From NCBI GenBank assembly GCA_028281325.1, contig JANQKC010000011.1:62001-126000 (forward strand): DNA of 64,000 nucleotides, read 5' to 3'. Made by a program: the position numbers and the translations under genes. Shown piece after piece: positions 52,060 through 58,448 of this stretch. Source of the DNA: Alphaproteobacteria bacterium. Its GTDB lineage: Bacteria > Pseudomonadota > Alphaproteobacteria > UBA8366. Every line of letters begins with the position of its first letter. Position 1 is the first letter of the stretch. The notes below the pieces were generated by a model. The model ran no database searches, was not told where the DNA came from, and worked only from the letters and a program-made list of their open reading frames with translations.

Positions 52060-54102
52060 TCATCCCGCGTAGGCGGCCACCTCCACGAAGCAATCGTTGT
52101 AGCAGGCGCCTTCGGCGATATCCGCCTTGTCCGTCGGGGCGAGCGCAGAGACGGTCTGCTCATTGTCCGTCGTCTTGAACCAGGCGCCCTTGACCGAACA
52201 CAACACGCCGGGCCGGATCGCATTGGTGACGCGCAGCGGCAGATGCACCTCGCCCAGATCGTTCCAGACCTTGACCATGGCGCCGTCTTCGAGACCGCGC
52301 GCCGCGGCGTCGTCCGGATGCATGTCGAGCTTCGGCGTCTCGTCGCACGCCTTCACCCCGCCGAAGGTCGACGTGATGCGCTTGTCCGAGGACGGCGTGA
52401 TCAGCGTCAGCGGGTAATCCGTCCGCAGTTCCGCATAGCGGGGCAAGGCTGCGCCGTATTGCCGCTCCAGGTCTTCCGACAGCAGCTCGACCTTGCCGCT
52501 CGGCGTCGCCGGGAAGACATTCTTGAACAGCACCGGCTCCTCGCCGTCGTACTCCATCCGGATCGCCGTATCCGTCGGGATTTCCGTCGGCCGGTGGCCC
52601 TTGAGCCGGATATCGCCGCCGTCGATCGCCTCGCTCATCAGCTCCTTGTCGCTCGCCTTGAACGTCGGATCGTCATAGCCGAAACGGGCCGCGAGCCGGC
52701 GGAAGATTTCGGTATTCGGCAAGGACTGGCCGTAGGGCGGGATCACCGCCTCGGCACGTTGCAGGTATTGCTGCCCGTAGGCAGCATAAAGGTCGTCATG
52801 CTCGAAATGGGTCGACGCCGGCAGCACCACGTCGCAATACTTCATGCTGTCGGTCATCGCGACCTCGACGCCCACGGCGAACAGGTCCTCGGTCAGCAAC
52901 GCGCGCTTCATGCGGTTCTGGTCCGGATGCACGATCACCGGATTATGGTTGTAGATGACCACCGCCTTAACCGGCGGGTCGAGCGACTCGTCGAGGATAT
53001 GGTTGCTGACATCCAGGATGTTCAGCGTCCGCGTGCCCTCGGGGACCAGATCCGGCCGTTGCAGCCGCGCCATGGTCTTCGGGAAGGCGTTGCCCGACGC
53101 CGCGTGCAGCCCGCCGCCGGGCACGCCGAACTTGCCGGCCAGGGCCGGCAGCGCGCAGACCGCGCGGATCCCCGACCCACCGTTGCGGTTCCGCTCCAAC
53201 CCGTTGCCGTAGTTGATCGCCGCCGGGTTGGCCTCGCGATACCATTTGGCGACGGTGCGAATATCCTCCGCCGGCAGGCCGCAAACCTCGGCCGCCCGTT
53301 CCACCGGGTATTCCCGCGCCAACGCCATGAACTCGTCGAACCCATGCACGTGTTTCTCGATAAAGGCATGGTCGAAGCCGCCGGTCCGCTCCAACTCGTT
53401 GGCCAGCGCCCAAGCCAACACCACGTCGGTGCCCGGCCAGACCGGCAGGAACAAGTCCGCCTGCTCCGCCGTCTTGATCCGCTTCGGATCGACGATGACG
53501 ACCTTCGCGCCCTTCTTGCGCGCGGCGTTGAGACGGCGTTGGAGATGCAGGTTCGACACCGTCACGTTGTTGCCCCAAACGATGATCGTCTCGGCCAGTT
53601 CGATCTGCTCCGGCGGCATGCCGGGAACCGGGCCGTAGGTCGCGGCATAGGCCTCGCTCTTGATCCCGCCGCACATCGGCCGACGGCTCAGCAGGCTGGC
53701 GCCCATCTTGTGAAAGAAGCGCAGCGACATCGAATCGCAGGAAATCAATCCGTGCGGGCCGGCATAATTCAGCGGCAGCACCGCTTGAGGGCCGTGGGTA
53801 TCGATCACGCGCGACAGACCGGCATGCACCAGATCGATCGCCTCGTCCCAGGAAATTTCCACGAAGCGGCCTTCGCCCTTGGCGCCGACGCGTTTCAGCG
53901 GCGTGGTCAGACGGGTCTCGCCGTGAACGAATTCGGGATAGTAGCGGCTGACCTTGTTGCACAGCACGCCCTCGGTGATCGGGTTGACCCGCGAGCCGCG
54001 GACCTTGACCACCTTGTTCTCCTCGACCGTGACGGTCAGACTGCAGGTATCCGGGCAATCCATCGGACACACGCTGGGCTTCTGCAGACTCTGCTCTGAC
54101 AT
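52060..54102 (-). CDS. Molybdopterin-dependent oxidoreductase with [4Fe-4S] domain
   Basis: A 680-residue enzyme of the DMSO reductase family. The N-terminal cluster ligands are visible as CPMDCPDTCSL followed by GVLCNKVSRYYP (C-x3-C-x3-C and a fourth Cys). Molybdopterin-binding regions include NYAGPHGLISCDSMSLRFFHKMG, IVWGNNVTVSNLHL, VVIVDPKRIKTAEQADLFLPVWPGTD and the C-terminal MHPDDAAARGLEDGAMVKVWNDLGEV. GVPGGG and YNHNPVIVHPDQ are typical. No Tat signal or redox partner subunit is seen, so it may be a cytoplasmic single-subunit enzyme. Mo coordination residue is probably Cys or Ser in RRPMCGGIK. Confidence 0.9.
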   Translation of the reverse strand: MSEQSLQKPSVCPMDCPDTCSLTVTVEENKVVKVRGSRVNPITEGVLCNKVSRYYPEFVHGETRLTTPLKRVGAKGEGRFVEISWDEAIDLVHAGLSRVIDTHGPQAVLPLNYAGPHGLISCDSMSLRFFHKMGASLLSRRPMCGGIKSEAYAATYGPVPGMPPEQIELAETIIVWGNNVTVSNLHLQRRLNAARKKGAKVVIVDPKRIKTAEQADLFLPVWPGTDVVLAWALANELERTGGFDHAFIEKHVHGFDEFMALAREYPVERAAEVCGLPAEDIRTVAKWYREANPAAINYGNGLERNRNGGSGIRAVCALPALAGKFGVPGGGLHAASGNAFPKTMARLQRPDLVPEGTRTLNILDVSNHILDESLDPPVKAVVIYNHNPVIVHPDQNRMKRALLTEDLFAVGVEVAMTDSMKYCDVVLPASTHFEHDDLYAAYGQQYLQRAEAVIPPYGQSLPNTEIFRRLAARFGYDDPTFKASDKELMSEAIDGGDIRLKGHRPTEIPTDTAIRMEYDGEEPVLFKNVFPATPSGKVELLSEDLERQYGAALPRYAELRTDYPLTLITPSSDKRITSTFGGVKACDETPKLDMHPDDAAARGLEDGAMVKVWNDLGEVHLPLRVTNAIRPGVLCSVKGAWFKTTDNEQTVSALAPTDKADIAEGACYNDCFVEVAAYAG

Positions 54103-54224
54103 TCTTTCCTCCTTGACCACCCTGAACGCCGGACCTGCCGATCCGGGAGCTTGATCTAAGGGATTAATTGGCTCCTGAAACAGGGCCAATTGCGGCGACC
54201 CCACGAGTCCATTAGGTCAGGCCG

Positions 54225-55712
54225 CTAGCGGACCTCGTCCATGACACGGGCCAGGGTGGCGGCCCCGCGCTTCATTTCCGGCAACGGAACACCGGCATAG
54301 CCCAGCATCAGGCCGAGACGCGGCGTATCCTCCAGGTAGTGACGGGATAGGGACGGTGCTTCGACGCCGCGGTCGCGGGCCGCCTGCGTCAACGCCGCGT
54401 CGTCGATTCCGTCGTCGAGATACCCGATCAGATGCATGCCCGAATCCTGGGCTTCCACGGACAACCGGTCGCCGAGCCGATCCCGTATCACCGTGATCAA
54501 GTCCGCCTGCCGTTCGGCGTAGAGCGCGCGCATGCGGCGGATATGCGCGGCCAGATAGCCTTCGCCGATGAAATCCGCCAGGGCGCCCTGGGCGGCGGTC
54601 GACGGATGGGTATCGATGAGCTGCCGCACGCCGCGGAAAGCGTCAACCAGGTCGCGCGGCACCACCAGGTAGCCGAGCCGCAACCCGGGAAACATCACCT
54701 TGCTGAAGGTGCCGAGATAGATGACCCGGCCGTCGGCGTCGAGGCCTTGCAGCGCCGCGAGCGGCCGGCCCGCATAGCGGTACTCGCTGTCGAAATCATC
54801 CTCGATCACGAAGGCGTCGGCGGCATGCGCCCAATCGAGCAGTTCGAGCCGCCGCTTCAAGCTCATGGTCACGCCAAGCGGATAATGGTGCGACGGGGTG
54901 ACGCAGACCAACCGCGCCTTCGGCGCACGGCGACGGCCATGATCCACACTGATCCCTTCATCATCCAGCGGCACCGGCACCAAGGCCGCCCCGGCCCCCA
55001 ACAGCGCGCCGCGAATCCCGAGATAACCGGGATCCTCGACCCATACTTCGTCGCCCGGGTCGATCAAGACCCGCGCCGCGAGGTCCAACGCCTGCTGCGA
55101 GCCGGATACGACCATCACCTGATCGGCATCGCAGGACACCGCCCGCGCCGCGCCGAGATAGTCGGCAATCGCCACACGCAACGGCTCGTATCCCGCGACG
55201 TCGCCGCCGACGAGGAACTCGCGTTGCGGATAACGCCAGTGCCGCGCCAACAGCCGCGCCCAGTCGTCGAAAGGGAACCGCCCCAACTCCGGGAATCCGG
55301 GCGAAAAGGCGACGGGCCGCGTGCCGACCGATGTACGGATGCCGGCCAGGTAACGGCCCCGCCTCGACAGGCTTGGTTTCGACGTTTCGCGGTTGCCCTT
55401 CGCGTCTTCCCGCCCCGGCCGCGCGGACAGCAGCTCTTCGGGCAGGGTCGCCGACACATAGGTGCCCGCGCCGACACGGCCCTGCACGTATCCCTCGGCC
55501 AGCAATTGATCGAAGGCGATGACCACCGTGTTGCGCGAAACGGCCAAGTCCGACGCCAGGGTGCGCGTCGACGGCAGGCGCGTATCCGGACGCAACCGTC
55601 CGTCGAGGATCGCCTCGCGAATCGCGAAATAGACCTGACGATAGAGCGGCTCGTCGGCGGCGCGGTCGATGGACAGCGTGCCGATCGGGGCAGCCGCGTA
55701 ACGCCGTATCAT
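54225..55712 (-). CDS. MocR/PdxR-type GntR regulator with aminotransferase domain
   Basis: These proteins join a GntR winged helix to a fold-type I aminotransferase-like domain that binds PLP and senses it. The DNA-binding part has EPLYRQVYFAIREAILDGRLRPDTRLPSTRTLASDLAVSRNT; the second domain has EVWVEDPGYLG, SHHYPLGVTMS, VIEDDFDSEYRYAG and the PLP lysine in GTFSKVMFPGLRLGY. Starts at 55712 (GGAA six bases upstream, 495 residues) or 55727 (500) are possible; I prefer the first because the operator abuts the second. Targets usually include the own gene and a neighbour such as pyridoxal or amino-acid genes. Confidence 0.9.
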   Translation of the reverse strand: MIRRYAAAPIGTLSIDRAADEPLYRQVYFAIREAILDGRLRPDTRLPSTRTLASDLAVSRNTVVIAFDQLLAEGYVQGRVGAGTYVSATLPEELLSARPGREDAKGNRETSKPSLSRRGRYLAGIRTSVGTRPVAFSPGFPELGRFPFDDWARLLARHWRYPQREFLVGGDVAGYEPLRVAIADYLGAARAVSCDADQVMVVSGSQQALDLAARVLIDPGDEVWVEDPGYLGIRGALLGAGAALVPVPLDDEGISVDHGRRRAPKARLVCVTPSHHYPLGVTMSLKRRLELLDWAHAADAFVIEDDFDSEYRYAGRPLAALQGLDADGRVIYLGTFSKVMFPGLRLGYLVVPRDLVDAFRGVRQLIDTHPSTAAQGALADFIGEGYLAAHIRRMRALYAERQADLITVIRDRLGDRLSVEAQDSGMHLIGYLDDGIDDAALTQAARDRGVEAPSLSRHYLEDTPRLGLMLGYAGVPLPEMKRGAATLARVMDEVR

Positions 55713-55727
55713 GACGGTTCCAGACAT

Positions 55728-55773
55728 ATTGGTTCTATAAAAATCTGTCAGATAGAAATTTATACGAACCAAT
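55728..55773 (-). promoter_or_regulatory. Candidate MocR-family operator with nested palindromes
   Basis: Outer arms ATTGGTTCTATAAA (55728-55741) and TTTATACGAACCAAT (55759-55773) form an inverted repeat with one inserted base, and ATCTG-T-CAGAT (55743-55753) is a perfect inner dyad. The arm sequence TGGTTCTATA fits known MocR operators, which contain repeated TGGTTC- or TGGACC-type boxes next to CTA. It lies directly before the MocR start codons, so self-repression is likely. Confidence 0.6.
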
Positions 55774-55878
55774 CAGGCGCGGAAACACTTGTTTTCGGTT
55801 ATCGGTCGATAGGAATGGCGCGTTCCGGCGGGAGTTGAGGCGCGCGGCCCCCCACGCGGCGATAACGGCGGCCGTTCC

Positions 55879-57141
55879 TTAGTCGACCGTCCGATAGCTG
55901 GGGAAAAGGATCTTGGCGCATGTCCCACCATCCTCCGGCATTTCGAGAACCAGGTCCGCGCCATGGAGGTTGGCGAGCTTCTTTACGATGGGAAGGCCGA
56001 TGCCTGCCCCTTCGAATTCACGGTTGTAGCCGGTGTCGATTTGCCCGAAGACGTCCAAGGCGTCGCCCAAGGCGTCCTTGTCGATTCCGATGCCGGTATC
56101 GGTAACCGCAACGATTGCCGATCCGTCTTCCGCGACGCCAAGCTCGACGTCGATGCGACTGCCCTTTGGCGTGAATTTGATCGCGTTGCCAATCAACTCG
56201 AGCAGGATCTGCTCGATGTGAATGGCGTCTCCGAGCATAGACAGCGGATCTTCCGGCGTCCGCACGTCGATGACGACACCATGGACCATCGCCTCACCCG
56301 ACAGCGCAACGACGCATTGACGCGTCAGGGCGTGAAGGTCCAGCACCTCCTCCTTGATGCCCACGCTGCCGGCGTCCGTCAGCTCCAACAGCCGGTCGAC
56401 GAGGTCGAGTTGACGCCGCCCACCCTTGGAAATCTGCTCGGCAAACTCACGATACTGCGGCGGCCGCACAGGCCCCATCAGCTCTTGGGAAATGCAATCG
56501 GCGAAACCGATCACGGCATTCAGCGGCGTCCTGAGTTCATGGCTCATGGTCGCGAGGAACTGCGATTTTGCTCTTTCGCCGGCGTCGACCAATTGCTGCA
56601 GATCGCGCATTTTTTCCTGCAAATCGGTTTCCGTTTGCCGCAGATGATCCCGTAAATGAATCTCGTCGACGACAATCTGCGCAAAGGCCTCTAGACTTTC
56701 CAGTTCCCCTTGGCCGAAGGAGTCTCTCGGCTTGTGATCGATGATGCAGAGCGTGCCGATTGCGGCGTCGTTCACGATCAAGGGTTGGCCCGCGTAAAAC
56801 CGAATATGCGGCGCCCCGGTCACCAATGGATTACCGTCGAACCGTGGATCGCGTGTCGCGTCGAGAACGACCAGCGCATCCGTATCCATGATCGCATGGG
56901 CGCAAAACGCGAATTCCCGGGGCGTCTCGGTTGCGTCCAGGCCGCAGCAGGCCTTGAACCACTGCCGATCCCTGTCGACCAGCGACACCAGCGCCATCGC
57001 TGTCCCGAAATGGGCCTTGGCGAGCCACACCAAACGGTCGAACTCCGGTGAAGGATCGCTGTCCAGGAGCGCCAGATCATCCAAGACAAACTGACGATAC
57101 TCCTCTTTGAACGGCGTCGGAGGGGTGGATTTAGACATCAT
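55879..57141 (-). CDS. GAF-domain sensor histidine kinase, soluble
   Basis: A 420-residue kinase without membrane segments. Residues about 25-165 form a GAF domain (LVSLVDRDRQWFKACCGL, FCAHAIMDTDALVVLDATRDPRF, GTLCIIDHKPR), of the type that binds chromophores or small ligands. A coiled linker (about 165-195) leads to the HisKA domain with phosphoacceptor His201 in ATMSHELRTPLNAVIG. The ATPase domain has the N box LIGNAIKFTPKGS, G1 DTGIGID and G2 GAGIGLPIVKKL. No response regulator gene is in the window. ATG 57141 or 57138 may be the start. Confidence 0.9.
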   Translation of the reverse strand: MMSKSTPPTPFKEEYRQFVLDDLALLDSDPSPEFDRLVWLAKAHFGTAMALVSLVDRDRQWFKACCGLDATETPREFAFCAHAIMDTDALVVLDATRDPRFDGNPLVTGAPHIRFYAGQPLIVNDAAIGTLCIIDHKPRDSFGQGELESLEAFAQIVVDEIHLRDHLRQTETDLQEKMRDLQQLVDAGERAKSQFLATMSHELRTPLNAVIGFADCISQELMGPVRPPQYREFAEQISKGGRRQLDLVDRLLELTDAGSVGIKEEVLDLHALTRQCVVALSGEAMVHGVVIDVRTPEDPLSMLGDAIHIEQILLELIGNAIKFTPKGSRIDVELGVAEDGSAIVAVTDTGIGIDKDALGDALDVFGQIDTGYNREFEGAGIGLPIVKKLANLHGADLVLEMPEDGGTCAKILFPSYRTVD

Positions 57142-57482: not shown

Positions 57483-58448
57483 ATGACCGTTCAAAATCGA
57501 GGACCCGGCGCAGCGTTGAATCCCGTAAAGTTTCAGCACCCGGACTTCACGGCAACCGGCGACCGACGCGCCGCCGTCGATCTCACCGCGCTCAAAACGC
57601 TATGGTTCAACACCGGCACGTTATGCAATCTCGCCTGCGAGAATTGCTACATCGAGTCGAGCCCGACCAACGACCGGCTGGTCTACATCAGCCTCGCCGA
57701 AGTGACCGGTTACCTGGACGAAATCGCGGCAGACGACCTGGGCACGACGGAGATCGGTTTCACCGGCGGCGAACCCTTCATGAATCCCGACATGTGCGCC
57801 ATGCTGGAGGCAACGCTGTCGCGCGGCCTACAGGCGCTGGTTCTGACGAACGCGATGCGGCCGATGATGAAATGCGCCGACGCGCTGCTTGATCTGAGAG
57901 CGCGTTATGGCGACCGTCTGTTGCTGCGCGTATCGCTCGACCACCATACGGCAGCCTTGCATGAGATGGTGCGCGGCAAGCATTCCTGGCAAACCGCGAT
58001 CGACGGCCTGCGGTGGCTGTCGGACAACGGCTTCAATATCCATGTGGCGAGCCGAACCTGTTGGAACGAGCCAGACCCGGTCATGCGCGCGGGCTTCGCC
58101 CGGATGTTCGAGAAGGAAGGAATCGCAATCGATGCCAACGATCCGGTCGCGACCATGCTGTTGCCGGAAATGGACCAGTCGCTCGACGTACCGGAAATCA
58201 CCGAGCAATGCTGGGATATCCTGGGCGTATCGCCCGATGCGATGATGTGCGCCACATCACGCATGGTGGTGAAGCGCAAGGGGGCGGAGAAGCCCGTCGT
58301 CACGCCGTGCACCCTGCTGCCGTATGACGAGGCGTTCGATATGGGCCATACCTTGGACGAGGCGGCCACGGCGGTGAAACTCAATCATCCGCATTGCTCG
58401 CGGTTTTGCGTGCTCGGCGGCGGCGCCTGCAGTCGAAGCGCGGCCTAG
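57483..58448 (+). CDS. Radical SAM protein with Cys-rich C-terminus
   Basis: A 321-residue enzyme that would cleave S-adenosylmethionine with a [4Fe-4S] cluster to make a radical. Cluster ligands are C48, C52 and C55 in LCNLACENCYIES, and GFTGGEPF (residues 92-99) is the SAM-contact motif. The C-terminus has PCTLLPYDEAFDMGHTLDE and then HCSRFCVLGGGACSRS, four close Cys that could hold an auxiliary cluster as in SPASM-like proteins. Substrate is unknown: small peptide, cofactor or thiol modification are possibilities. It lies 27 bases before a metallophosphoesterase-fold gene. Confidence 0.85.
   Translation: MTVQNRGPGAALNPVKFQHPDFTATGDRRAAVDLTALKTLWFNTGTLCNLACENCYIESSPTNDRLVYISLAEVTGYLDEIAADDLGTTEIGFTGGEPFMNPDMCAMLEATLSRGLQALVLTNAMRPMMKCADALLDLRARYGDRLLLRVSLDHHTAALHEMVRGKHSWQTAIDGLRWLSDNGFNIHVASRTCWNEPDPVMRAGFARMFEKEGIAIDANDPVATMLLPEMDQSLDVPEITEQCWDILGVSPDAMMCATSRMVVKRKGAEKPVVTPCTLLPYDEAFDMGHTLDEAATAVKLNHPHCSRFCVLGGGACSRSAA

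Follow-up and report, generated by a model that had tools for sequence, protein, structure and literature searches.

A putative autoregulatory operator with a decayed middle box upstream of a MocR/PdxR-type regulator gene in an alphaproteobacterium

Introduction

A gene for a MocR/PdxR-type regulator on contig JANQKC010000011.1 of an alphaproteobacterial assembly, of which 64,000 nucleotides (hereafter the window) were analysed, is preceded by a 46-nt dyad at positions 55728-55773, which raises the question of what the dyad is for and which protein, if any, reads it. An initial annotation had taken it for a MocR operator built of TGGTTC-type boxes, with a second palindrome nested within it. 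In motif collections of this subfamily the commonest structure is two direct boxes plus one inverted box, and TGT or TGG occurs in most motifs; the regulators are often auto-repressors and often divergent from their targets (PMC5320631). The number of boxes can vary within one orthologous group, as in the OapR group, which in Rhodospirillales lacks one box (PMC5320631). Two direct repeats and one inverted repeat are also described for PdxR, together with the idea that the regulator adopts two conformations (cited in PMC4944035). The comparisons presented below make it very probable that the dyad serves the adjacent minus-strand gene as its autoregulatory operator, one of a known type with a decayed middle box, and to this extent the annotation as a MocR operator is borne out.

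The dyad, the regulator and its start codon

The stretch 55728-55773 reads ATTGGTTCTATAAAAATCTGTCAGATAGAAATTTATACGAACCAAT, and the annotated dyad is present in it. Its outer arms, ATTGGTTC (55766-55773) and GAACCAAT (55728-55735), are complementary at 8/8 positions with 30 nt between them. The longer arms that had been quoted are complementary once one strand is shifted by a single nucleotide, which adds 6 bp (TATAAA against TTTATA plus an extra C), and not without that shift. The short arms alone are unremarkable, because dinucleotide shuffling of the 166-nt intergenic region produced an 8-bp perfect dyad with a spacer of up to 31 nt in 21 of 300 cases. The gapped, extended dyad has a score of 11, which was reached in none of 100 shuffles. 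When compared without gaps with the same-genus locus L042, the operator is identical at 40/46 positions and the 46 bp just upstream of it at 14/46.

The regulator gene (54225-55712, minus strand) encodes an N-terminal GntR winged helix-turn-helix domain (Pfam GntR, 58.4 bits, cut-off 27) and a C-terminal fold-type-I aminotransferase-like domain (Aminotran_1_2, 93.1 bits, cut-off 19.7), the combination that defines the MocR subfamily. Amongst the NCBIfam models, PdxR (NF052282) is matched at 438.7 bits, above its cut-off of 320, and rhizopine MocR (NF052281) scores best, at 549.4 bits, yet falls below its cut-off of 650. The best matches in the PDB are 7pq9 and GabR. The dyad had also been described as touching the start codon, which is true for an ATG at 55727 only. 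This codon is ATA in the L042 ortholog, where the ATG at 55712 is kept, and amongst 44 orthologous loci of at least 50% identity (anchored without gaps, some being the same contig taken twice) an ATG, GTG or TTG is aligned to 55712 in 29 and to 55727 in 4. Judged from these alignments, the conserved start is the ATG at 55712 and not that at 55727, so that the operator ends 15 nt before the start codon.

A three-box operator in the relatives

Orthologous upstream regions were drawn from 59 genomes, 34 of which gave a match at E ≤ 1e-60, and from a species collection in which 80 of 328 loci were kept. The resulting 110 sequences (109 loci and the window) contained 106 distinct upstream regions after four duplicates had been merged; one locus, L068, whose match starts at residue 40, was dropped, leaving 105, and all were anchored without gaps. 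The initial annotation had proposed that arms not conserved in orthologous promoters would speak against an operator. The outer pair ([ATG]TGG and CCA[ACT], 39-40 bp apart) is kept in most of these regions, not in all (83/105), the CCA end of the pair lying upstream of the anchored start, most commonly by 12-13 nt; 77 of the 105 have TGG followed by CCA at 40 bp. Between the two lies a further box that the annotation had missed. The series TGG, CCA about 17 bp on and CCA about 23 bp further, which represents one inverted and two direct boxes, occurs in 63 of the 105 regions, whereas 100 rounds of shuffling gave 0.99 on average and never more than 3. Its agreement with the published '-> -> <-' structure assumes that TGG is the forward arrow (PMC5320631). 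Amongst the 83 regions with the outer pair, the middle box retains CC in 76 and CCA in 60; it lacks CC in seven, of which three (L014, L052 and L056) look by eye like chance pairs.

Judged against its relatives, the window is a case in which the outer two boxes are kept and the middle one has decayed. A position weight matrix (PWM) was trained on 36 TTGG/ATGG-type sites of the 77, and it cannot gauge how frequently the middle box is lost, because all training sites were required to have CC there. By this matrix box 1 (coding-strand ATTGGTTC, 55766-55773, minus strand) scores 11.1 (training mean 11.0) and box 3 (coding-strand GAACCAAT, 55728-55735, minus strand) 11.3 (mean 12.1), each being one arm of the perfect inverted repeat. 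The place of box 2 (coding-strand AATTTCTATC, 55751-55760, minus strand; consensus AAGggCCatT) scores -4.5 (mean 12.4). The corresponding place in L042 scores -5.1; in both sequences the outer pair is spaced at 39 bp, and the middle-box triplets are CTA and CTT. What is left in the window is two inverted TGG-core boxes; the two-box inverted structure of MocR motifs is drawn as '<- ->', without spacing, in Table 2 of PMC5320631.

A mechanism consistent with these observations would involve a MocR dimer whose winged-helix domains presumably contact the three boxes found in relatives. In the window's genus, boxes 1 and 3 have stayed intact whilst box 2 has decayed, leaving a widely spaced inverted repeat. 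The bound regulator would block its own promoter, and pyridoxal 5'-phosphate (PLP), or a PLP adduct of an amine, would alter its binding.

The arrangement is, on these alignments, widespread and not universal, even close to the window's branch. A three-box site occurs farther upstream in L016 and L017, with its TGG at -161 and -173, respectively. By eye, L011 has TTGG and CCAAT at a different spacing, and direct TGG boxes can be made out farther upstream in L013-L017 and L036. In L016, between about -161 and -85 as counted from the anchored start, direct boxes of opposite orientation (TTGGTCC...TGGCCC) come after the three-box site, and the two sets may be paired operators for divergent promoters.

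A small predicted regulon

A search for the same boxes elsewhere in the genome had been suggested as a route to the regulon. TTGGTTC...GAACCAA, with 7-nt arms 26-36 nt apart, has a single match in the window's genome (G000), the dyad itself. With up to three mismatches, the two-box pattern finds one site without mismatch in G000 and one in a sister genome (G001), again the dyad, and two further matches in G000, each with three mismatches. A search with TTGGTTCNTATAA allowing one mismatch was uninformative (3 places in G000 against 5 for the reversed control). The loose pattern TTGG-N36/37-CCAAT gave 63 strand matches in G000 against 18 for its reversed control, and is too loose to be used alone, but it pointed to the C14/C31 site. 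A scan with the three-box pattern at up to two mismatches yielded three matches in G000 and four in G001, each G000 match being paired at the same gene in the sister genome.

One of these lies in the window itself, which the initial annotation had also overlooked. It is an intact three-box site at 54168-54213 (plus strand), between the MocR gene and a molybdopterin oxidoreductase gene (52060-54102, minus strand; Pfam Molybdopterin, Molydop_binding and Molybdop_Fe4S4; start set by eye at the MSEQ codon), its predicted target. The site has one mismatch in both G000 and G001 and is aligned with L042; its boxes 1, 2 and 3 score 9.8, 10.3 and 8.2, so that all three are present by the same matrix. 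A second site lies between divergent genes for a GNAT acetyltransferase and a pyridoxamine-phosphate oxidase (PNPOx)-like protein, both assigned by Pfam on the G001 copies. The third, which precedes a gene for a TauE/SafE permease (assigned by Pfam on the G000 copy), is the weakest (3.6, 13.6 and 7.8). The same regulator probably controls a small regulon through such three-box sites, comprising the molybdopterin oxidoreductase gene and the GNAT/PNPOx-like divergon, and perhaps also the permease gene.

The predicted divergon fits the published PdxW regulons, which consist of few genes, without transporters, and include PNPOx-like proteins and RimI/RimL acetyltransferases (PMC5320631). In the window's genome the divergon is present, but so are the weaker permease site and the oxidoreductase site. 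As a guide to the PNPOx partner, PF12900 gives one sub-threshold match in this genome. The GNAT gene of the divergon (L128:1510-2235, minus strand, G000 C14) contains one in-frame stop, either a mutation or a sequencing error, and the sister copy (L129:2200-2967) is open. Beside the C14 site, boxes similar to the opposite-orientation set of L016 can be seen by eye.

It is modestly unusual that the middle box is missing from the regulator's own site and present at the other predicted ones. That the loss is selective, and uncouples autorepression from control of the targets, is a tentative idea to which we give a rather low probability. If true, it would constitute a natural test of whether MocR proteins use different conformations for inverted and for direct boxes. 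A single genome with two-box and three-box sites, probably read by the same protein, would in any case be convenient for studying how the two box orientations are read, and the predicted regulon offers a small, testable set of genes for an uncharacterised alphaproteobacterial PdxR/PdxW-like regulator.

Weighing the alternatives

Several observations weigh against reading the dyad as an autoregulatory operator of the three-box kind. The structure of two direct boxes and one inverted box at conserved spacing is incomplete at 55728-55773, where box 2 has the negative score given above. In three of the closest orthologs, L011, L013 and L015, a TGG...CCA pair spaced at 39-41 bp is absent from the 400 bp examined, and the pairs in two others, L014 and L036, look like chance. 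No sigma-70 promoter match was found in 55600-55900, so that overlap of the operator with a promoter is only inferred. As regards the regulon, the reversed-pattern control of the three-box scan itself gave one match per genome (against 3 and 4), and the fourth G001 match (C61) has no partner in G000. Box 3 of the divergon site is weak in G000 (9.8, 14.0 and 4.9 for the three boxes; training mean of box 3, 12.1), as is box 1 of the permease site (3.6 in G000 and 4.3 in G001; mean 11.0).

A further point on that side is the stability of the dyad as RNA: the 46 nt have a folding energy of -14.4 kcal/mol (z -4.7), and none of 200 shuffles is as stable. The dyad might accordingly be a hairpin in the mRNA leader, acting as an attenuator or a translation block, and transcriptional read-through from the co-directional histidine kinase gene upstream could carry it. 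Any extended dyad folds, however, and a hairpin leaves unexplained the third, direct-orientation box in the TGG/CCA set of the orthologs. Furthermore, relative to its gene, the site at 54168-54213 has these boxes the other way round, nothing resembling a terminator was found in 55600-55900, and Rfam gave no match up to E 1 in 55600-55950; we regard a hairpin function as very improbable. An RNA element was accordingly rejected as a candidate, with no Rfam matches and with its stable fold accounted for by the DNA dyad. It is just as hard to credit that this is the site of some other GntR-class regulator that recognises TGG/CCA boxes as well. TGG/TGT groups are common to motifs of GntR subfamilies (PMC5320631), and the genome does contain a second MocR-like gene (G000:C29). 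Yet the boxes precede relatives of the window's own regulator in records whose titles name several phyla, the C29 gene, the other GntR-type gene examined, lacks a TGG...CCA pair spaced at 39-41 bp on both strands of L131:301-800, and P0001 is matched over its full length in the genome by the window's gene only.

The inner palindrome raises a different question, having been proposed as a binding site for a second dimer or for another factor. This dyad, ATCTGTCAGAT (55743-55753, no strand assigned), contains the 7-nt CTGNCAG, which is kept in L042. The whole spacer is conserved between the two sequences (25/30 identical), however, so the 7-mer is not singled out, and the outer positions of the inner dyad are changed in L042, from ATCTGACAGAT to TTCTGTCAGTT. 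It also lies off-centre, being centred on 55748 compared with 55750.5 for the operator, and a dyad with 5-bp arms and a 0-1 nt spacer appears in the interior of 69/1000 shuffled operators. Comparable inner dyads occur in 7/83 spacers against 5.1 expected after shuffling, and ATCTGACAGAT is found in the window only. A second functional site is thus highly unlikely, and on these counts the nested palindrome is best explained as chance. As a conserved element it was rejected, being no commoner than chance and absent from the other 82 spacers. The preferred explanation of the outer dyad remains an operator of the adjacent MocR/PdxR-type gene.

Gene neighbourhood and other loci

A GAF-histidine kinase gene (55879-57141, minus strand, Pfam) lies between the MocR gene and a radical SAM gene (57483-58448, plus strand; Pfam Radical_SAM). 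In L042, L011, L013, L014, L015 and L036 a homolog of the radical SAM protein, detected by tblastn, is divergent to the MocR gene and starts 222-386 bp above the anchored start. In L016, L017 and L018 it lies about 1 kb upstream, and in the two of these loci that were checked, L016 and L018, a Pyridox_ox_2 (PF12900) gene lies between. In 11 related loci, each holding only 1.2-3 kb of upstream sequence, a search for relatives of the kinase was negative, which suggests that the kinase gene was gained in the window's lineage.

The second MocR-like gene, on C29 of G000, has a palindrome, TATTGTCACCATGACAATA, across its likely start codon (L131:761-779) and adjoins what looks by eye like a phosphomethylpyrimidine kinase gene. 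An AT-rich TTGG...CCAAT dyad (L130:1929-1973, G000:C17:168428-168472) is found at the start of what by eye is a LysR-type regulator gene, with a close copy in the sister genome (G001:C38:141599-141643).

Comparison with known MocR systems

The window operator shares individual features with several described systems. The EnuR/EutR operators are likewise of the MocR/GabR type and overlap a promoter, an overlap only inferred here; they differ in their consensus, ATTGTnnnnnnACAAT, with a 6-bp spacer, compared with the 30-bp spacing of the window operator (PMC8739950). The motifs of Bacillus clausii PdxR and of YczE-linked MocR proteins contain similar TGGAC/GTCCA-like boxes, but at a 12-bp spacing and with other targets (PMC4944035). 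For the rhizopine MocR, moc-boxes (AAAGYGGYTCT) have been proposed as direct repeats with a 13-bp spacer (PMC10107442). The moc-box resembles the reverse complement of boxes 2 and 3 described here, and its repeats have a similar period (11-bp box plus 13-bp spacer); unlike that system, the present one also has an inverted box, and the NCBIfam score of its regulator is below the cut-off of 650.

A search of the literature that covered few subscription papers found no experimental study of a PdxW operator. Compared with the PdxW regulons of Suvorova and Rodionov (2016, PMC5320631), the window regulator's own site lacks the middle box, and the PdxW paragraph of that paper names neither a molybdopterin oxidoreductase nor a TauE/SafE permease, both of which are predicted targets here. 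The features in common are a MocR-type regulator, TGG-core boxes arranged as two direct and one inverted at the intact sites and, in the regulon predicted for the window's genome, a PNPOx-like protein together with a GNAT acetyltransferase.
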